DNA from: Anaerolineaceae bacterium oral taxon 439
GTDB lineage: Bacteria; Chloroflexota; Anaerolineae; Anaerolineales; Anaerolineaceae
NCBI GenBank assembly: GCA_001717545.1
Contig: CP017039.1
Span: 1 to 64,000, forward strand
Direction of reading: 5' to 3'
DNA: 64,000 nt
Below the pieces are notes generated by a model, which worked only from the letters and a program-made list of their open reading frames with translations, was not told the DNA's origin and ran no database searches. Position numbers and translations under genes: made by a program. Shown in pieces: positions 652-8,895 of this stretch (positions within the stretch are counted from its first letter, which is position 1; each line of letters starts with the position of its first letter).

Positions 652-1134
652 ATGACCAAAATCATTTTTATCATTAACGATACGCAGATCGCGCTGACAA
701 AAAGTCCCGATCCTCTCGATCAGGTCCTCGACCGGATCGCCGCGCAGACCTTTCCGCTTCCTGCCGATACGCGGCCGGAAGACTGGGCGGCCATTAACGG
801 CGTCCTTGTCGTCGCGTTAAGTCGGAACCCAACGTCCATTGAACAGCTTAGCCCGCGCCAGCGGACGGTTTTGGAGCTGCTGACCGCCGGGTCGACGCGG
901 GAACAAATCGCGCAGAGCTTAAGAATTTCACCGCCGACGGTCGACTTTCATCTTGACGGAGCGAAAGAAAAATTTAAGGTCGCGACGCGAAACGAACTGA
1001 TCGCCCGCTTCGCCGCTGAGCGCGAGCGGGAAAAACGCGAAAACGAGTCAACCGTCCTGATCGGCGAACCGAACGACGAGTTTTCAGGAAATGCAAATAT
1101 TTTGGGAACAAAATTGCCGCGTGAATCGTATTAA
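652..1134 (+). CDS. LuxR/GerE-type DNA-binding regulator, single HTH domain without receiver
   Basis: This 160-residue protein has a GerE-type helix-turn-helix at about residues 65-122, starting LSPRQRTVLELLTAGSTREQ and continuing through IAQSLRISPPTVDFHL. The 64-residue N-terminal part is short and resembles neither a response-regulator receiver nor an autoinducer-binding domain, so the input signal is unknown. The tail after residue 125 is charged and probably disordered. The gene has a good promoter at 578-606 and lies 24 bases upstream of the large secreted repeat protein, which it probably controls (context only). The ATG at 652 is preceded by a purine-rich AGGCGGGGAACAGG stretch. Confidence 0.8.
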   Translation: MTKIIFIINDTQIALTKSPDPLDQVLDRIAAQTFPLPADTRPEDWAAINGVLVVALSRNPTSIEQLSPRQRTVLELLTAGSTREQIAQSLRISPPTVDFHLDGAKEKFKVATRNELIARFAAEREREKRENESTVLIGEPNDEFSGNANILGTKLPRESY

Positions 1135-1158: not shown

Positions 1159-3609
1159 ATGATGTTAGAAACGATTTTCTTAAAAACCAGAGGCAGGACG
1201 AAGCGATCGCATTCCGCGGCCGCACTCGTCTTTTTCATTCTCTTCCTGACGGTGCTGACGCCCGCCGCGGCGCAGCGTCCCGTCTGTCTTGATCCGATTG
1301 GGAACCCGCGGACCGTCGCGACGTCGAACGCTGAAGACATCTGCTATGATCAGCTGGGGAACCCGACGACGCTTAAATTCAGCGAGTATCTATCGATCTT
1401 AGCAAAGCTTCAGCAAACCATCACGCCGGCCGCACCCGCACAGCCCGGCACTCAGCCTATACCGACGGAGGACCTGTTAGGTCAGCCGCAGCCTGTGCCG
1501 CTCGACCCGCTACGCGAGACGCCGGACGTGCTGCCGAGCGAGACGCCGGACGTGCCGCCGAGCGAGACGCCGGACATACCGCCGAGCGCGACGCCGGACG
1601 TGCCGCCGAGCGCGACGCCGGACGTGCCGCCGAGCGAGACGCCGGACGTGCCGCCGAGCGAGACGCCGGACGTGCCGCCGAGCGAGACGCCGGACGTGCC
1701 GCCGACCGAAACGCCGGACGTGCCGCCGACCGAGACGCCGGACGTGCCGCCGACCGAGACGCCGGACATGCCGCCGAGCGAGACGCCGGACGTGCCGCCG
1801 ACGGAAACGCCGGACGTGCCGCCGACCGAGACGCCGGACGTGCCGCCGACCAACACGCCGGTTACGCCGCCGACCAACACGCCGGTTACGCCGCCGACGA
1901 ATACGCCGGTTACGCCGCCGACGAATACGCCGGTTACGCCGCCGACGAGTACGCCGGTTACACCGCCGACCAACACGCCGACCGCGACCGAAATCCCCGC
2001 GCCGGGGAAACCAATCCTGATCAGCCCGAACGCCGAATACACCACGCGAACGCAGACGTTCAGCTGGAAAATTTCGTCCGACACGACGAAATACCGCGTG
2101 TTCTGGAAGAACGAATGGAATGATACCGGTACGGCTGATCTTCCGGCGACCGATCCCGCCTGCGGAAGCGACAGCTGTTCGCTGACGACGACGCTCCCGA
2201 TCGAAGGAAAGTACACCTGGAACGTCACCGCATCCAACAGCGGCAGCAAGACGACCGTTTCCGACAACATGGAATTCCGCGTCAATCCGAATATCACGAC
2301 CCCGGGCGGCATCCTGCCAAGCGGATATATTAATAACCGCCGCTGGGTCAGCTTCGTCTTCGACGACGTTCGCGACGGTGTTAAGGAATACAACGTCCAG
2401 ATCTACAATGAAGACAAGCGGGTCGTGATGGACGAGAAACGGAAAACGTCCGAGCTTACCTTCGCAAATAACCGCGTGACCTTTAACGCCTATGTTGACC
2501 TGCCGGCCGGAAAGTATTACTGGCGTGTCCGCGGACGAAGCGACAATTCGCTCAGCAACTGGTCCGCGCCGATCGAAATCCGGACGACAACGTATTATCA
2601 GCCGCCGGCCCCGCCGCCAGCCAACAATTACAACACGCTGGCTATCTTCTCGCCGTCGGGAACGGTGACCGATGCGTCGCTGACGCTGAGCTGGCGTCCG
2701 ATCGTCGGAGCGTCGAGTTACACGATCAAAGTCTATAACAGTTCCGGCGCTGAAATCTTCTCCAGTGACGTCTCCTCGTCGGTCTGCTCCGCGTACAGCT
2801 GTTCCGCGACACCGGGATTCACCTATCCCGCCGTCGGGAGCTATCGGATTTACGTCGCCGCGCGATCCGCGACCGGCGTGAACTGGGGCGACGGTTCGTC
2901 CTGGGTCACGTACAGCACGACGCCGGCAACCGTCGCGACCACATCGCCGCTCACGATCCGCCCCGCCGGAAGCGACCCGAATCAAGCAACTGTGAGCGAA
3001 ACGCGCTTTCTCTCGCCCGCCGATCAGGGCAAGCTGCACGTTTCAGAAGCCGCGATCAGCTGGGTCGATCAGGGCGAAACCGTCAAATATTACGACGTTA
3101 AGATTACCGACGCGTCCGGCGCGACCCTCCTTGAAACGACGCTCGACCGCCAGACGGCCTACTGCAACAATAAAAACTGCACAATCGTCTTCGACGAAAT
3201 CGCGCCAGCCGATGGGTACCGCCTGACGCTGACCCCCAAGAGCGAAAACGGGACGGCCGGAACGGCGGCGACGTTGACATTCAACGTCACCGATCAGGAC
3301 CTGCCGATGACTGGGTTATATCCGACCGAAGGCCAGACGACCGCCCAGCGCCCGTATTTCAGCTGGACGCTTCCGACCGGAACCGCCAACGCCGAAACGT
3401 TTACGTATGCGCTGAAGTTAAAATCCACGACGAATAAAGCCGAGACGATCTATTCCGATCTGGTCTGCACGGATGAGCGCGTGGGCTGCTTCAAAGGCGG
3501 GGCGTCGTTTGTCCTGACCGAAAACCTGCCCGCCGGCGAATACACGTGGCAGGTTCAGAATAAGGAAACGAACCTGATGACCGAGGAAATGAAATTCGTC
3601 GTTCCGTAA
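1159..3609 (+). CDS. Secreted surface protein with 8-residue Pro/Thr repeats and Fn3-like domains
   Basis: The product has 816 residues. A long signal peptide (residues 1 to about 38) has a basic start, a hydrophobic core VFFILFLTVLTP and an AAA-Q cleavage site. Residues 120-271 are nineteen perfect-length copies of an 8-residue unit, first ETPDVPPS/T (14 copies), then NTPVTPPT (5 copies), probably an extended and perhaps glycosylated stalk. The remainder holds about five beta-sandwich (fibronectin III-like) modules marked by GKYTWNV, GKYYWRVRGRS, GSYRIYV and GEYTWQV strands. Paired cysteines sit close together within modules (CGSDSC, CSAYSC, CNNKNC, CTDERVGC) and could be disulfides of an exported protein. 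No sortase or membrane anchor is visible. The ATG at 1159 has the ribosome site GGGGAGG. Adhesin or polymer-binding roles are possible but unproven. Confidence 0.85.
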   Translation: MMLETIFLKTRGRTKRSHSAAALVFFILFLTVLTPAAAQRPVCLDPIGNPRTVATSNAEDICYDQLGNPTTLKFSEYLSILAKLQQTITPAAPAQPGTQPIPTEDLLGQPQPVPLDPLRETPDVLPSETPDVPPSETPDIPPSATPDVPPSATPDVPPSETPDVPPSETPDVPPSETPDVPPTETPDVPPTETPDVPPTETPDMPPSETPDVPPTETPDVPPTETPDVPPTNTPVTPPTNTPVTPPTNTPVTPPTNTPVTPPTSTPVTPPTNTPTATEIPAPGKPILISPNAEYTTRTQTFSWKISSDTTKYRVFWKNEWNDTGTADLPATDPACGSDSCSLTTTLPIEGKYTWNVTASNSGSKTTVSDNMEFRVNPNITTPGGILPSGYINNRRWVSFVFDDVRDGVKEYNVQIYNEDKRVVMDEKRKTSELTFANNRVTFNAYVDLPAGKYYWRVRGRSDNSLSNWSAPIEIRTTTYYQPPAPPPANNYNTLAIFSPSGTVTDASLTLSWRPIVGASSYTIKVYNSSGAEIFSSDVSSSVCSAYSCSATPGFTYPAVGSYRIYVAARSATGVNWGDGSSWVTYSTTPATVATTSPLTIRPAGSDPNQATVSETRFLSPADQGKLHVSEAAISWVDQGETVKYYDVKITDASGATLLETTLDRQTAYCNNKNCTIVFDEIAPADGYRLTLTPKSENGTAGTAATLTFNVTDQDLPMTGLYPTEGQTTAQRPYFSWTLPTGTANAETFTYALKLKSTTNKAETIYSDLVCTDERVGCFKGGASFVLTENLPAGEYTWQVQNKETNLMTEEMKFVVP
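1516..1971 (+). repeat. In-frame 24-bp minisatellite, 19 copies, within the surface-protein gene
   Basis: Exactly 456 bases form 19 units of 24 bp. The first 14 units encode ETPDVPPS/T variants and the last five encode NTPVTPPT or STPVTPPT. Neighbouring copies are nearly identical at DNA level, with only GAG/GAA and AGC/ACC-type changes. This indicates recent slippage or recombination expansion rather than old duplication. Because the unit is a multiple of three, copy changes only lengthen or shorten the stalk. Confidence 0.95.
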
Positions 3610-3626
3610 ACCGGGACGCATCACAG

Positions 3627-3656
3627 AAAGACCTCATGCCGCGCGTGGGGTCTTTT
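3627..3656 (+). terminator. Intrinsic terminator after the surface protein
   Basis: AAAGACCTC (3627-3635) pairs with GGGGTCTTT (3647-3655) and is followed by T residues. An upstream ATG at 3636 lies inside this hairpin, which argues against it being the start of the next gene. Confidence 0.75.
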
Positions 3657-3728: not shown

Positions 3729-6689
3729 ATGAACCAGCCTACGCCAAACCACCCAACGCCGCCCAACGCTTCATTTCACGCGCCGAAATTCGAGATCCGA
3801 TACGCGACATACGCGGCGTTGGAAAAGCTGAAATCCGAAATCTGGATGGAGTTTGATCATGAAAAACCGACGGTCGTCGTCTGCGTCTGGGACGGGGCCG
3901 GAGCGGTCGACTCGATCAACGTCTTCACCTCGTTTGAAAGCGCGATCGACGAGCGCGGCGCCGATATCCGCGTCGTTCTCCGCGAAATCGACGGGACAAA
4001 CCTGGAAGATCAGCCGGCGATCGTCCTGTTTCTTCCGACGCATGAACTTCAATCGCGCGTTACGCCGGACCGCTGCGGCGCGCTGACCGACCGTTTTATC
4101 CGCCGCCTCCAGGAGCAGGACGAAGAAACGCAGCGGATCATTCGCTCAGTAAAACGATCCCCCGTCCGGCCCGGCTCAGCGCGGCCGGCCCCGCCGCCCG
4201 CCCGGACAACGGCGGAACGTCCCGTCTTTGTCAGCGGAAGCGAACCGAAATTCCCTTTCCTTTCGCGAAAACAGGCGCGGCGGGCCCCCGACGAGCTTCG
4301 CGCGCCCGCGCTGCCGCCGCCGGCGACTTCGCCGGTCCGAACGGCGCTGACCACGCTCTCCAACGAGATCATGCGGAAATATCCGGCTGACGAGAATCAT
4401 CTCGTCATCTGCGCCGGGGAAGGGAAATCCGCTTCCGCCGCGATCGCGCTCTACACGTCGCTGCAAAAAGCCGTTGACGAGGAAGATCTCCCGGTCAGGC
4501 TGCATATCAAAAAACTTGAAAGCGCCTTTTTACGCGAAATGAGCCCGATCGTCCTGACCGCGCCAACGGAAGCGATTTATATTAACGTCCGCGCCTGCGA
4601 CGCCGCCAATATCGTTCGCAGGACGATCCTCAAAGGCGAGATACTCGAGGCGCTGACGTATCAGGACAGCGCCGGCGTCACGTCGCGTTCGCTCTCGGTC
4701 AAAGAACTGACCGACCTCGCCGCCGAGAACGAACCGATCGCGTCGCGATCGGACGAAGACCTTCCCGATCCGATCGCGCTCCTGATCCCCGGGAAAGCGG
4801 CTTTCCACCCCGACGCGGCGGAGCTTCTCGAAACGCCGGGCGTTAAAGAACGGATCCTCTTCAGCGCGCTGACGGCCGCCGCGGAAACGAAGCCCGCCCC
4901 ACGAGCCAGGCCGCAGGCCGCCGCGTCGACCGACGGCGAAAGCGAATTCATGACGGTCGCCGAACTTTTCGCGCTAAGCGACGCCGACGCGCTCCGTTCG
5001 AACGGAACGGACGCCGAAGAAAACGACGGACAGGACCCGACCGTCGCGAATTCAAATAATATTCATCAGGCATTCGACGAAATTCTCGCGAAAAGCTCGA
5101 CCGTGAACCCACCGGACAGGCCGCAGCTCCTCGTCCTCTACGGGACGGCCGGCGAGCGCGGCGCCGCTCAGGCTTTCGCCGCCGAACTCCGCGAAGCCGC
5201 CGGACTGATCGATGTTAAGGTCAGCCTCTCCTCCGCGCTGGGGATTCCCAACGCCGGCGTCGCGCTGCGGATCGACCCAGCCGGGATCCTGTATACGCAG
5301 CTTCGTCGCGGCGACTGCGACCGGATCGTGAACATGACGATCGCGGGCGGCGTCGTCCTGCCCGAATACCTGATGCGCGACGGACGAAGCGGGAAACGCT
5401 ATCTCCTCTATCGCGATATCCCCTGGATCCGGCAACAAACGCGCCTGATCAGCGACGATTTCGCCGCGATATCCGCCGAATCGCTTTCCGCCTGGTTGAA
5501 TCAGGGCGGCTACCGCGGCGCAGTCCGGGCGCTGACGGCGCGTCCGGACGAAAATCTGCGCGAGATTCAGGCTTCCCATCTTCGCGGACGCGGTGGCGCC
5601 GGCTTCCCGACCTGGCGGAAAATGGAGCTGGCGGCGGCGGAATTAGCCGTCCCAAAAACGATCGTCGCAATCTGCGCCGCGGAAACCGCCGAAGCGATCC
5701 TTTCGCGCGCGCCTCATGCCGTCATCGAAGGCATGATTATCGCGGGGAGGACGATCGGCGCAAGAAAAGGCATCCTCGCGCTGCAGAGCTGCGCATCATA
5801 TACCAAACGCGTCTGCCAAAAGGCGATTCACGACGCGGAGAGCAACCGCCTGATCGGGAGCGACCTCCTTAATAGCGGGCTGCGCTTCGACGTCGAGATT
5901 CAGGCCGTCGACGAAGCGACGCCAGCCGGAGACGAAAGCGCGATTCTCGCAGCGCTGAACAGGAAATCGCCGCGGCCGACGAAACGCCCTCCTTATCCGA
6001 CGCAATCCGGAATCAACGGCAAACCGACTGTCGTTCTCGACGTACGGACGGTTTGTGCGCTGCCGGTTATTTTCCGTGACGGCGCGGCGGCGTTCGCCGT
6101 TGAGGGGACGCGCTCTTCGGGCGGAACGCAGTTCATCAGGATCAAAACCGCGGGACGAAGCGACGCGCTGATGGAAATTCCGATCGGCCGGCGTCTCGAC
6201 GTTCTGGCCATGAACACGCTTTCGTTCGAAGAACGGAAGAAAATTACCGGCGTCCGTCTTGGCGACCAGCATGGCTGTTATCTGTCCGCCGATCAGTTCC
6301 AGCTCACACTGGACGAAGCCGCTTTCGAATCGATCGGCAGCCCGCTGCAAACGACGATCGAATGGCTCGACGATTCAACCGATATTTTAGCGCGGGTCCA
6401 TGCCGACCTCGAGGCCGCGCTCGACCGCGCCGACGGCGAAAACGATCTATACCGGTTCGGGCTGGAAGCGCTGCTGAAATCGATCGATCGCCTCCGCGCG
6501 GGAGAGTTTAAGAACGACCGCGACCTGATCGCGCTCCGGAACCTCGCGGAAGGGATCCGCGACAGCGCGCAAACACGGACGCATCGCGAATCGCTGATCC
6601 CGATTCTCAGTGCGCTCGCCTGCTTCACCGCTGAATTTCGCGCGCGTTTCGCGAAACGCCGCTTTACCGCGAAAGAAAGGAACCCGTAA
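3729..6689 (+). CDS. Giant NuoF/HydB-like pseudoenzyme with three cysteine-less thioredoxin-like ferredoxin domains
   Basis: The product has 986 residues. Three thioredoxin-fold [2Fe-2S]-ferredoxin-like segments lie at about 36-130, 205-312 and 463-550, separated by Pro/Ala linkers. They resemble the NuoE/HydB N-domain (VICAGEGKSASAAIALYTSL; LRIDPAGILYTQL), yet none keeps the four cluster cysteines. Residues 615-960 follow NuoF: HLRGRGGAGFPTWRKME, HAVIEGMIIAGRTIGARKG, GDESAILAALN, GINGKPTVV and a RDSAQ...LIPILSAL tail. The NuoF motif ESEPG is replaced by TAEAI, and the CGKCTPCREG iron-sulfur motif by DDSTDILARVHAD. FMN, NADH and cluster binding therefore look lost, suggesting a scaffold or regulatory subunit. 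The start at 3729 is preferred because the ATG at 3636 lies within a terminator. The stop overlaps the next start (TAATG), so the two genes are translationally coupled. Confidence 0.75.
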   Translation: MNQPTPNHPTPPNASFHAPKFEIRYATYAALEKLKSEIWMEFDHEKPTVVVCVWDGAGAVDSINVFTSFESAIDERGADIRVVLREIDGTNLEDQPAIVLFLPTHELQSRVTPDRCGALTDRFIRRLQEQDEETQRIIRSVKRSPVRPGSARPAPPPARTTAERPVFVSGSEPKFPFLSRKQARRAPDELRAPALPPPATSPVRTALTTLSNEIMRKYPADENHLVICAGEGKSASAAIALYTSLQKAVDEEDLPVRLHIKKLESAFLREMSPIVLTAPTEAIYINVRACDAANIVRRTILKGEILEALTYQDSAGVTSRSLSVKELTDLAAENEPIASRSDEDLPDPIALLIPGKAAFHPDAAELLETPGVKERILFSALTAAAETKPAPRARPQAAASTDGESEFMTVAELFALSDADALRSNGTDAEENDGQDPTVANSNNIHQAFDEILAKSSTVNPPDRPQLLVLYGTAGERGAAQAFAAELREAAGLIDVKVSLSSALGIPNAGVALRIDPAGILYTQLRRGDCDRIVNMTIAGGVVLPEYLMRDGRSGKRYLLYRDIPWIRQQTRLISDDFAAISAESLSAWLNQGGYRGAVRALTARPDENLREIQASHLRGRGGAGFPTWRKMELAAAELAVPKTIVAICAAETAEAILSRAPHAVIEGMIIAGRTIGARKGILALQSCASYTKRVCQKAIHDAESNRLIGSDLLNSGLRFDVEIQAVDEATPAGDESAILAALNRKSPRPTKRPPYPTQSGINGKPTVVLDVRTVCALPVIFRDGAAAFAVEGTRSSGGTQFIRIKTAGRSDALMEIPIGRRLDVLAMNTLSFEERKKITGVRLGDQHGCYLSADQFQLTLDEAAFESIGSPLQTTIEWLDDSTDILARVHADLEAALDRADGENDLYRFGLEALLKSIDRLRAGEFKNDRDLIALRNLAEGIRDSAQTRTHRESLIPILSALACFTAEFRARFAKRRFTAKERNP

Positions 6690-8176
6690 TGATCCGGATC
6701 ACGATCGATAAAAAAACGTTCGCGGTCGACGGGTCCGTCTCAATTCTGACCGCCGCCCGTGCGAACGGATTCGAAATTCCGACCTTCTGCGACGTGGCCG
6801 GACTGACGCCGGATGGGAGCTGCCGCGTTTGTCTCGTCGAAGTCACGTATCCGGACGGAACGCGAAAAATCGTTCCCGCCTGCGATACGCCGGTCTGCGA
6901 CGGGCTTCGAATCCGGACCGGAACCCCCGCCGTCCGCAACGCGCGGAAGCAGGCGGCGGCGATCTTCCTGAGCCTCGCGCCGGACGCGCCGAAAATCCGC
7001 CGGCTCGCCGCTTCGCTCGGCGTTGAACGGCCGATCTTTATATCCGACCGCGCCGGCCCCGGCGCCTGTATCCATTGCGGGATTTGCGTCCGCGCCTGCG
7101 CCGAAAAGTCGAACGGGGCCCTCCGCTTCTCGGGAACAGGGAAAAACCGCCGGCTGACGCTTCCCGGCGTCGATCCGCGTCAGGAACGGCGCGACTGCGA
7201 AGCCTGTATTCCATACTGCCCGACAGGGGCGCTGAAACGGGATGTCGGGCTGGGAATCGGGATGGAAACCGCGGCCGCTCAGCGCCGCCGCAGCGCCATC
7301 CGGCAAATCGTCCGTTGGCTTTTCCTGATCGCCTTCGCCGCGCTCGTGTCAATCACCGCGGTCGGCGACCTCTTCGGGACGGAAGCGCTCTCGGCTTTCT
7401 CGCGGATTAATCCCTTCGAAGGGCTGATCGTCCTGCTGACGCGCGGCCCTGCCGCCGCGCTGCCATACCTGCCCTCTCTGCTGGTGCTTCTCGGGACCGG
7501 CGTTTTCGGCCGGGTCTGGTGCGGCTGGATCTGTCCGACGGGAACGCTGCTGACGGCCTTCGGACCGAAAGGAAGCCGGATAACGAACCGCGGGCTGATG
7601 CGCTTTAAAACAGTATTGCTCCTGACCGCGATTGTCCTCGCGCTGGTCCGGCTGACGGCTCCGTTATACCTCGACCCGATCGCGCTCTTCAGCCGCGGCG
7701 TCCTCACGATCCGAGACATAGCCGCGGGCGGCGTTTTTCCGCCGTTAAACTTGGAAACGGTCCTGCGCGGATCGCTTCCGTTCGCCGTCCTGATGTTATT
7801 GAACGGCATTGAACGCGGCTTTTATTGCCGCTATCTCTGCCCGCTCGGCGCGCTCCTGGGACTGATTTCAAGATTCAGCCTGCTGAAACGGATCGTCAAT
7901 TTGGACGCCTGCGTTGAAGGCGAAGACTGCGCCGATCGCTGCCCGACCGGCGCGATCTCGGCTAAGCTCGGAAGTATTTCCGATCCGGCCGAATGCGTCC
8001 AGTGCGGCGACTGCCAGCCTGATTCCCCGACGAACGCGATCACGTTTGAATTCGGCTCGCCGTTCCGCGCGGTCCCCCGCGAATTTCGATTCGGACGCTT
8101 CGAGCTGATCGGAGCGGCGGCGCTGATCGCGCTGATCACGATCGCCCTGCTGATTTTCTCGCCCGGCCTACCCTGA
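6689..8176 (+). CDS. Membrane iron-sulfur fusion: [2Fe-2S] ferredoxin + 4Fe-4S + NapH/PceC-type polyferredoxin
   Basis: The product has 495 residues. Residues 1-80 are a NuoG/HydA-type [2Fe-2S] domain with C34, C45, C48 and C65. The usual HisCys3 segment that follows is cysteine-free (LSLAPDAPKIRRLAASLGV). A 4Fe-4S pair comes next: C127/C130/C133/C137 and the incomplete C170/C173/C177. Residues about 208-395 are a NapH/NosR-like membrane part with five or so helices and the two signature sites WCGWICP (277-283) and YCRYLCP (379-385). Two C-terminal 4Fe-4S motifs follow, the second ending DSP where CP is expected (C436, C439, C442, S446), then a last helix (473-491). The likely role is moving electrons between a soluble donor and the membrane. 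Its only partner here is the NuoF-like pseudoenzyme upstream. I do not know a named family with this architecture. Confidence 0.8.
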   Translation: MIRITIDKKTFAVDGSVSILTAARANGFEIPTFCDVAGLTPDGSCRVCLVEVTYPDGTRKIVPACDTPVCDGLRIRTGTPAVRNARKQAAAIFLSLAPDAPKIRRLAASLGVERPIFISDRAGPGACIHCGICVRACAEKSNGALRFSGTGKNRRLTLPGVDPRQERRDCEACIPYCPTGALKRDVGLGIGMETAAAQRRRSAIRQIVRWLFLIAFAALVSITAVGDLFGTEALSAFSRINPFEGLIVLLTRGPAAALPYLPSLLVLLGTGVFGRVWCGWICPTGTLLTAFGPKGSRITNRGLMRFKTVLLLTAIVLALVRLTAPLYLDPIALFSRGVLTIRDIAAGGVFPPLNLETVLRGSLPFAVLMLLNGIERGFYCRYLCPLGALLGLISRFSLLKRIVNLDACVEGEDCADRCPTGAISAKLGSISDPAECVQCGDCQPDSPTNAITFEFGSPFRAVPREFRFGRFELIGAAALIALITIALLIFSPGLP

Positions 8177-8208: not shown

Positions 8209-8895
8209 TTACAGCTTCGCGAGTTTTTCTTTCAGCTCCTGAGCCAGTTCGCCGAACAAATCGACGAACGCCGACGCCTGCGCTTTCGAATTGAAGTTGA
8301 TCCTGACCGTCAGGCTGACGCCGCCGTCTTTTCGTTTCGACGTCGAAGAAGACGTCGACGCGGCGGAATCGCCTTCGTCATACTCCTTCCGCAGCGTCAG
8401 GTACAAATTCGCCATCGTTCTGGCCTTCGACTCCGATTCGCCGCTCGCGCGCTCGAACCAGCGCTGGATCTTCGCCCGGTCCGATTTCGTCGAATAATCC
8501 ATCGCCAAAAGCTCCTCCGGATACCCGGCCTTCAGGATTTTCGCGACCGCGGCGCGATAACCGGACTCGCTTCCGAGCGAATCGGCCAGTTTCGTCGACT
8601 TCCCGTCCTTGCGAACGATCCCCATCAACTCCAGCGACGGCAGCACCGACGACTCAATTGTCGACTGCGAAACGTCAAGCGCGCTGACGAGCCAGCGCGT
8701 GGTAATATTTTCAGGAACGTTCGATCGGAACTTCGCGATCAGCTTCGACCAGTTCGCCGCGCTCAGCGTCGGAAATTTCGTCCCCCCGCCGAGAAGCCCG
8801 CCCGCCGAATCCAATATCGACCCCAAATCCAGCTTGCCGCCGCTTAAAAGATCGCCAGCTAAATCCGTCAGCATCTTTCCCGCGTCATTCGCCAT
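8209..8895 (-). CDS. DUF5343-like protein of unknown function
   Basis: The product has 228 residues. A glycine-rich N-terminus (about 1-45) precedes a domain at about 46-170 that matches my memory of DUF5343. It has paired winged-helix-like segments, TTRWLVSALDVSQSTIESSVLPSL and LELMGIVRKDGKSTKLAD, followed by a helical YRAAVAKILKAGYPEEL part. A Ser/Ala linker (SAASTSSSTSKRK) leads to a C-terminal beta-helix segment of about 45 residues (VSLTVRINFNSKAQASAFVDLF). No signal peptide or membrane helix is present, so it is probably cytosolic. The gene stands alone, convergent with the preceding redox gene. The function is unknown; DNA binding is only suggested by the helix-turn-helix-like pattern. 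Confidence 0.6.
   Translation of the reverse strand: MANDAGKMLTDLAGDLLSGGKLDLGSILDSAGGLLGGGTKFPTLSAANWSKLIAKFRSNVPENITTRWLVSALDVSQSTIESSVLPSLELMGIVRKDGKSTKLADSLGSESGYRAAVAKILKAGYPEELLAMDYSTKSDRAKIQRWFERASGESESKARTMANLYLTLRKEYDEGDSAASTSSSTSKRKDGGVSLTVRINFNSKAQASAFVDLFGELAQELKEKLAKL

Follow-up and report, generated by a model that had tools for sequence, protein, structure and literature searches.

A gene pair related to Bfu-type NADH enzymes whose NuoF/HydB-like subunit lacks nearly all cofactor motifs in an Anaerolineaceae bacterium

The Bfu family of electron-bifurcating enzymes (HydABC, Wor-Bfu; BfuABC) is defined by a common core whose cofactors are, according to the defining paper, absolutely conserved, and the main text of that paper makes no mention of NapH (PMC9304861). 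A classification of tungsten oxidoreductases recognizes a membrane-associated class V, and its main text contains none of the terms ‘Chloroflex’, ‘Anaerolin’ or ‘NapH’ (PMC13328260). The topology and CX3CP motifs of the membrane proteins NapH, NosR and RdhC are summarized in an account of these proteins (PMC5928378). Here we describe two overlapping genes, called A and B, located within the first 64,000 nucleotides (‘the window’) of the 2.95-Mb single-contig genome (G000:C1) of Anaerolineaceae bacterium oral taxon 439. Gene A encodes a protein of thioredoxin-like (Trx) and NuoF-like domains, and gene B encodes a membrane iron-sulfur protein. We assign a probability of about 0.56 to the reading that the pair is a Bfu-type complex uncoupled from reduced nicotinamide adenine dinucleotide (NADH), in which A has been retained as an adaptor of B without a redox role. 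Comparisons at the sequence level demonstrate the homology, the motif losses, the conserved pairing and the graded series of losses that underlie this reading. Relatives were sought in samples of 14 genomes from the same genus, 147 from the family and 396 from the class; numbers beginning with G or L are our handles for genomes and loci.

The NuoF/Nuo51 fold of A is evident from a match to Complex1_51K (PF01512; E 1.6e-20, 73.9 bits versus a Pfam cut-off of 31.2), and the closest relatives of A in the PDB by sequence are HydB/NuoF (BfuB) proteins. The match to NADH_4Fe-4S falls under the Pfam cut-off (16.4 versus 23.5 bits). The match to the NuoF equivalog model TIGR01959 also falls under its cut-off (164.4 versus 558.65 bits), as does that of the motif-intact HydB from G020 (506.7 bits). 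A Foldseek search retrieved 7p8n_b (E 1.3e-36) using a structure model of A that is weak (mean predicted local distance difference test score, pLDDT, of 53.5) and biased towards the HydB fold because its alignment included intact HydB rows. Three Trx domains precede the NuoF portion, and their hhalign comparison with the Trx domains of intact HydB proteins gives probabilities of 99.6% for Trx1, 99.6% for Trx2 and 85.6% for Trx3.

Most of the sites that would hold cofactors in such a protein are gone. On alignment of A to motif-intact homologues, the glycine loop GRGGAGFPT of the flavin mononucleotide (FMN) site and its lysine are retained; five residues of the NADEGDPGAF loop are deleted and no ligand residue aligns there, NN is replaced by LD, and GEE reads GDE. 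Among the glycine loop, the NADEGDPG loop, GEE and NN, the glycine loop alone is therefore left. The change from GEE to GDE was considered as a mark of degeneration and loses force, given that working-looking homologues vary here too (GES in L094, GEG in a paralogue from the same genome). The SCGKCxxC motif and fourth Cys of cluster N3/B1 are absent, all four Cys ligands of B5 are missing from Trx3, and no C-terminal 2[4Fe-4S] domain (B3/B4) is present. Among the Trx domains, every Cys has disappeared except one each in Trx1 and Trx2. For B2, the HxxxxxCPAGVC-type segment is missing in A of the window and of G008 and present in G002, G003, G009 and G010, where the check covered the His together with two Cys from the CPxxxC region, ligands named in PMC9304861. 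As an internal control, the paralogous NuoF-family protein (HydB) of the same genome retains the NADH loop, NN and N3 motifs. This paralogue is encoded in a hydrogenase-type cluster at L048:7760-11645, where HydC, HydB and a HydA-type gene follow one another; HydC and HydA were assigned by eye.

Protein B is a fusion of Fer2_4, Fer4 and NapH domains. Its arm is of the NuoG/HydA/HoxU kind ([2Fe-2S] plus 2[4Fe-4S]). Of the sites expected in a type-2 BfuA, the [2Fe-2S] and one [4Fe-4S] are complete and the other [4Fe-4S] is short of one Cys; no His/Cys-ligated cluster (A3) was seen between the arm motifs in the alignment. Residues 203-454 match TIGR02163 (NapH/MauN; E 2e-14) at 53.6 bits, below the cut-off of 213.05 that G020 B does not reach either (96.7 bits). 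Both CX3CP motifs of the four-helix core are intact, where the helices come from a low-confidence model alone. The two complete C-terminal [4Fe-4S] motifs of NapH/MauN are not seen in window B. Here G411 and S446, and in the arm R167, occupy positions that are cluster Cys in most or all relatives. Ferredoxin motifs cross-pair ligands between their two clusters. By this pairing rule, we take G411 and S446 to belong to one cluster, which would be left with two ligands and the neighboring cluster with its full set of four. L093 and L094 likewise have no Cys at position 411, and therefore this change alone proves little. Loss of the second Cys in NapH motif 1 is for the same reason weakened as a mark of pseudogenization, and the HydB proteins encoded beside this Cys-lacking motif in L093 and L094 still carry the NADH loop and cluster motifs.

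B from the window also stops early. The protein from relatives (G003, where the pair is KR, as well as G007, G008, G009, G010 and G020) runs on through a twin-arginine helix into a NapG-like polyferredoxin, and residues 472-659 of G020 B give matches to the NapG and MauM/NapG models that fall under the cut-offs. In the window, the twin-arginine before the last helix reads RF and the NapG half is missing. Loss of twin-arginine translocation (Tat) was rejected as the cause, as TatC is present in 14/14 genus genomes. An earlier note on this DNA, made from the letters alone, had placed the two genes and their TAATG overlap correctly and had recognized the three thioredoxin folds, the NuoF fold and the [2Fe-2S] plus 4Fe-4S arm fused to NapH. 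Its claim that the FMN, NADH and Fe-S motifs of A are ‘all replaced’ holds for the NADH loop, NN and the cluster sets, and is slightly too strong because GRGGAGFPT and its lysine are kept. Its suggestion of an active carrier is not supported in the sense of a fully active B in the window, given the three replaced Cys residues and the missing NapG half.

The earlier note had also found the arrangement unfamiliar, and this is explained by homology to HydC-HydB-[BfuA-NapH-NapG] clusters of other Chloroflexi. A search of the family sample with G020 B gave matches (E <= 1e-60) in 31 of 147 genomes; the arm is covered in six genomes of the window genus and five of the g8 genus, and only NapH-NapG is covered in the other 20. 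With L094 B as the query (E <= 1e-90), 55 of the 396 genomes of the class sample gave a match, and six of these matches extend from residue 1-2 to the end. Among named records, the closest homologues of B that have the full arm (L090-L094) are from Anaerolineaceae, Anaerolineales and other Chloroflexi metagenome-assembled genomes. HydC, HydB and the BfuA-NapH-NapG protein are encoded in a row in G020 and L090-L093. The HydC assignment rests on Pfam for G020, with further support from alignment for G020, L090 and L093, and was made by eye for L091 and L092. In L094, HydB and the fusion protein are present, and no further search for HydC was made there. The HydB proteins of G020 and L090-L094 have the NADH loop, NN, N3 and Trx cysteines; the L092 slice compared stops inside the last ferredoxin motif.

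Genes for possible electron acceptors lie close to these intact clusters. An aldehyde oxidoreductase (AOR) gene adjoins the G020 cluster (Pfam), and similar genes were judged by eye in L090-L092 and L094. Reductive dehalogenase (RDH)-family proteins exceed the NCBIfam cut-off in G020, L091, L092, L093 and L094 (in the last about 7 kb downstream), and none was identified at L090. With AOR-like and RDH-like genes beside it, the motif-intact arrangement has the look of a path that would take electrons from NADH to the outer side of the membrane without quinone. We met no description of a BfuA-NapH-NapG fusion beside such genes in a limited literature search. Within the window genus, AOR was found in 0/14 genomes and RDH over the cut-off in 0/14; weak RDH matches occur in 13/14, and such matches also occur in 11/14 control genomes.

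Some individual loci deserve description in their own right. At L049:1712-12323, L091:413-11022, L092:451-10971 and L093:833-6697, an intact HydC-HydB-[BfuA-NapH-NapG] set stands beside a Tat-type RDH-like protein that exceeds the NCBIfam cut-off in all four; a tungsten-oxidoreductase-like gene is assigned by Pfam in L049, was judged by eye in L091 and L092, and was not seen in L093. In L092:7171-10971, HydB and BfuA-NapH-NapG form one open frame of 1267 residues. The match to B in G168 is a frame of 1270 residues.

Within the genus, homologues of B (E <= 1e-20) are present in seven of the 14 genomes, and A is directly upstream in six of them (the window genome, G002, G003, G008, G009 and G010). 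The earlier reading of a cofactor-stripped NuoF-like protein coupled to a membrane Fe-S protein is supported, with the pair conserved in related genomes, and the case is clearest in G008. The seventh genome, G007, encodes a single 800-residue protein (L050:10894-13293, minus strand) in which a Trx domain (57.6% identical to G003 A) is joined to NapH-NapG (68% identical to G003 B). Neither a NuoF fold nor an Fe-S arm is present in this fusion, as though removed by an in-frame deletion over the A/B boundary, and a misassembly is possible because the assembly has 610 contigs. One match to A was counted in G007 (E 5.1e-14). Having no NuoF part, this protein was excluded from the alignments of A, and it entered that of B with the part starting at residue 301. 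G002 B ends at a contig edge, with a further piece on contig C73.

The six genomes with both genes differ in how much of the redox machinery they retain. G003, G009 and G010 have HydC as well as the B1 and B3-B5 ligands and, where checked, those of B2, although the conserved glutamate is missing from their NADH loop (NGNAADPG or NGDAGDPG). In G002, the glycine and NADH loops and the Trx3 ligands of A are gone, and no HydC lies between A and the preceding gene; N3/B1, the checked B2 residues and the C-terminal ferredoxin are retained. In G008, the flavin and NADH sites, Trx3 ligands, C-terminal ferredoxin and B2 residues of A are gone and three of the four N3 cysteines are left, with a B that is complete in its cluster cysteines and NapG. 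In the window, A is left with the glycine loop alone, and no HydC/BfuC was seen (by eye) beside A and B. Since different sites were lost in different sub-lineages, the losses were partly independent rather than simply nested. The NADH half of the complex appears to have been dismantled stepwise in this genus, where AOR- and RDH-like partners were not found.

What has been retained is uneven across the two proteins. At least one cluster-less Trx domain and the NapH core are present in all seven genus members that hold B, and a cluster-less Trx with the first former ligand Cys occurs in 7/7. In a tree of domains, the cluster-less Trx of G009 and G010 groups with Trx1 (support 98) and that of G003 and G007 with Trx2 (support of only 66). 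From this tree, the genus ancestor probably had a Trx doublet of which each line kept at least one member. Among the window, G002 and G008, identities are 49-60% for Trx1, the best conserved portion of A, and 36-66% for Trx2. They fall to 26-33% in Trx3, 33-35% in the FMN fold and 25-26% in the helices at the C terminus, compared with 48-55% for the Fer2 domain of B.

Branch lengths measured from the genus ancestor, in trees of 10 sequences (G007, L091, L092 and the paralogue from the window genome were set aside), show at the sequence level that the NuoF fold evolves faster than the B arm in these three lineages. For the NuoF core, branches are 1.04-1.76 in the window, G002 and G008 versus 0.49-0.56 in G003, G009 and G010; for the Fe-S arm of B, the corresponding values are 0.64-1.01 and 0.61-0.65. 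The ratio of nonsynonymous to synonymous substitution rates (dN/dS) between G009 and G010, whose A proteins are 69% identical, is 0.10 for Trx1, NuoF and NapH, 0.11 for the 4Fe-4S part of the arm, 0.27 for Fer2 and 0.49 for Trx3.

A scenario that accommodates these observations is as follows. A and B would descend from a membrane-anchored complex of HydC/BfuC, HydB/BfuB and a BfuA-NapH-NapG protein, which, judging by the neighboring genes, probably sent NADH electrons through NapH-NapG across the membrane to an extracytoplasmic reductase. The genus would then have lost this acceptor, and the NADH half would have been taken apart step by step. The A protein may persist as a non-redox adaptor that uses its cluster-less Trx doublet and what is left of its NuoF fold to bind the Fe-S arm of B on the cytosolic side. 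In such a complex, only B could still conduct electrons, and if it does, they would come from a soluble donor that is not NADH. B retains one [2Fe-2S] site, a complete and a three-Cys [4Fe-4S] site in the arm, one complete [4Fe-4S] site in NapH and both CX3CP motifs. We infer the docking role, the electron donor, any acceptor and any remaining electron flow, and with them the final function of the pair. A more daring and clearly tentative extension is that a bifurcation-type complex has turned into a flavin-free, NADH-free membrane module, whose core might consist of a cluster-less Trx domain with one former ligand Cys plus the CX3CP motifs of NapH, and whose minimal form might be the Trx-NapH-NapG protein of G007. 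If so, living species would show each step from an electron-transfer enzyme to a non-redox adaptor or signalling machine.

Several points weigh against the adaptor reading. Seven of the 14 genus genomes have no B, and the B of the window is itself eroded, which fits plain decay too. Its NapH branch is the longest in the genus (1.75 versus 0.56-1.15) and therefore counts against a fully maintained B. Window Trx2 is 42 and 36% identical to its counterparts in G002 and G008, barely above the 35 and 35% of the FMN fold. The dN/dS values for pairs that include the window are saturated and were not used. The A-B complex is a supposition, and the B model is too poor (pLDDT 47) for an A-B interface to be examined. 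Plain decay is the strongest rival: with the reductase lost, the operon would serve no purpose and both genes would be disappearing, their frames not yet broken. The successive loss of clusters, HydC, the C-terminal ferredoxin and NapG is what such a relic should look like, as are the lack of B in half of the genus sample, the long NapH branch of the window, and the absence of the NuoF fold and Fe-S arm in G007. However, A is free of internal stops in all six genomes over frames of ~1000 codons, even though the other five proteins are only 28-32% identical to that of the window. The conservation of Trx1 and Fer2, the dN/dS values near 0.10 in G009/G010 (though Trx3 is at 0.49) and a guanine-plus-cytosine content of A by codon position that resembles that of two window genes taken for pheS and pheT also speak against it, and we consider decay on balance unlikely.

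Other fates for the pair fit the data less well. A neofunctionalized signalling or assembly module, in which the cluster-less Trx and NapH core would work with the LuxR-type regulator and secreted repeat protein encoded upstream, for example in sensing or surface-protein maturation, gains from the secreted proteins that precede the pair in six genomes (with the regulator in five of these), from G007 having kept Trx and NapH-NapG alone, and from the RdhC protein CprC, which is described as first having been interpreted as a NosR/NirI-type regulator (PMC5928378). Yet G001 has the regulator and secreted proteins without A/B, and the Cys pairs of the secreted proteins are there with or without A/B, with no specific dependence visible, which makes this quite improbable. 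A role of B as carrier between the quinone pool and ferredoxin or NADH, which the earlier note had suggested as possible, we regard as very unlikely. In its favor, NapH participates in quinol oxidation elsewhere (PMC5928378), both CX3CP motifs of B are intact, and MqnA/D-family proteins exceed a low cut-off in 3/14 genus genomes (27-38 bits, with 38 in the window genome). Against it, these matches are weak and a Thermotoga maritima control passes too, MenD exceeds its cut-off in 0/14 (the best, 166 of 244 bits, is in G012, a genome without B), and B of the window is without its NapG half and without some of the ligands for one cluster of NapH. Ion-pumping subunits were not recognized by eye among the window genes, no search dedicated to them having been made. 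That A is still an NADH dehydrogenase with an altered flavin site is hardly credible: the glycine loop and lysine are intact in the window but not retained in G002 and G008, and the deleted NADEGDPG loop, the changed NN and GEE, the lack of an N3/B1 acceptor cluster and the absence of a visible HydC gene beside A all argue otherwise.

The neighborhood of the pair is partly shared among the genomes, as seen with an open-reading-frame filter that may conceal genes (Table 1). Secreted repeat proteins lie upstream of the pair in the window, G002, G003, G008, G009 and G010; a regulator precedes them in all of these but G002, whose contig extends to secreted-type genes and has no regulator on it. 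The secreted protein gene precedes A in the window and G008, whereas HydC lies between the two in G003, G009 and G010. The link of regulator and secreted proteins to A/B is not obligatory because both are present without A/B in G001. In the window, the secreted protein has a long stretch of ETPDVPP-type repeats, and its later modules carry pairs of Cys, most of them spaced as Cx4C. The idea that A and B are disulfide partners of this neighbor was dropped as unsupported, with Cys pairs also found in G001. G009 has a gene with an FGE-sulfatase domain (Pfam; L046:5446-6720) between the secreted repeat proteins and HydC, and a look-alike is present in G010. PHROGs scans gave five matches, mainly regulators, for the LuxR-type protein and none for the DUF5343 protein. 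A further in-frame ATG is found upstream of the start of A, at 3636, and AGAGAG lies immediately 5′ of 3729.

Table 1. Features of the A/B locus and its neighbors in window coordinates.
Feature	Residues	Positions	Strand	Basis
Gene A, cluster-less Trx-Trx-Trx-NuoF/HydB pseudoenzyme (putative)	986	3729..6689	+	
Trx1 of A, cluster-less, Cys52 remaining	25-115	3801..4073	+	hhalign, alignments
Trx2 of A, cluster-less, Cys228 remaining at first former ligand	226-325	4404..4703	+	hhalign, alignments
Trx3 of A, counterpart of HydB N-terminal [2Fe-2S] domain (B5)	439-545	5043..5363	+	
NuoF/HydB fold of A; NADH/FMN loop deleted, N3/B1 and B2 ligands gone	585-972	5481..6644	+	
Retained FMN glycine loop LRGRGGAGFPT	618-628	5580..5612	+	
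TAATG stop/start overlap of A and B (1 nt), GAAAGGA 5′ of it		6687..6691	+	
Gene B, type-2-BfuA-like arm plus NapH, without NapG half	495	6689..8176	+	
[2Fe-2S] domain of B, Cys34/45/48/65 intact	1-80	6689..6928	+	
Two [4Fe-4S] motifs of B; first complete, second without first Cys (R167)	121-187	7049..7249	+	
NapH core of B; both CX3CP intact, ferredoxin motifs short of one Cys each (G411, S446)	190-455	7256..8053	+	
LuxR-type helix-turn-helix regulator; homologues in 14/14 genus genomes		652..1134	+	
Large secreted protein with repeats and Cys pairs; similar ones in other genus members		1159..3609	+	
DUF5343 protein; the pair is flanked by look-alikes, judged by eye, in G003, G007, G009 and G010		8209..8895	-	

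One genus thus holds homologues with cluster ligands kept, partly stripped and fully stripped, all beside the same membrane partner, and therefore the order of losses and the worth of a flavin-less bifurcation core are testable. The series indicates which parts persist once the chemistry is gone. The stripped homologues contrast with the absolute cofactor conservation stated for the Bfu core in PMC9304861, and our literature search found no degenerate NuoF paralogues.

Among known systems, NuoEFG of complex I shares its NuoF fold with A and a NuoG-type [2Fe-2S] domain with B. Unlike NuoEFG, the NuoF portion of A is without cofactor sites, and no NuoE or membrane subunit of complex I was recognized (by eye) alongside. 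The NapH/NapG proteins and their relatives (MauN/MauM, NosR, RdhC) have in common with B the TIGR02163 match and the two CX3CP motifs; B differs in its fusion to a BfuA-type arm and, in the window, in the loss of the NapG half and of two NapH ligands. A tungsten aldehyde oxidoreductase that bifurcates electrons with NADH (PDB 9mqx) supplies the best solved relative of the B arm (chain A, E 3.5e-25), and its chain B matches A by fold. The matched chains have no NapH part, and the AOR family is missing from the genus sample of the window (0/14). The Bfu enzymes are also among the closest known systems: A has its homologue in BfuB, and the B arm has its own in a type-2 BfuA, with 7p5h_B and 9mqx_A as the best PDB matches. 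G003, G009 and G010 retain the Cys of B1, B3/B4, B5 and C1, the checked B2 residues and an adjacent BfuC. The window differs from Bfu in having neither an adjacent BfuC nor any B1-B5 ligand set, and its A carries two extra cluster-less Trx domains while its BfuA part is fused to NapH.

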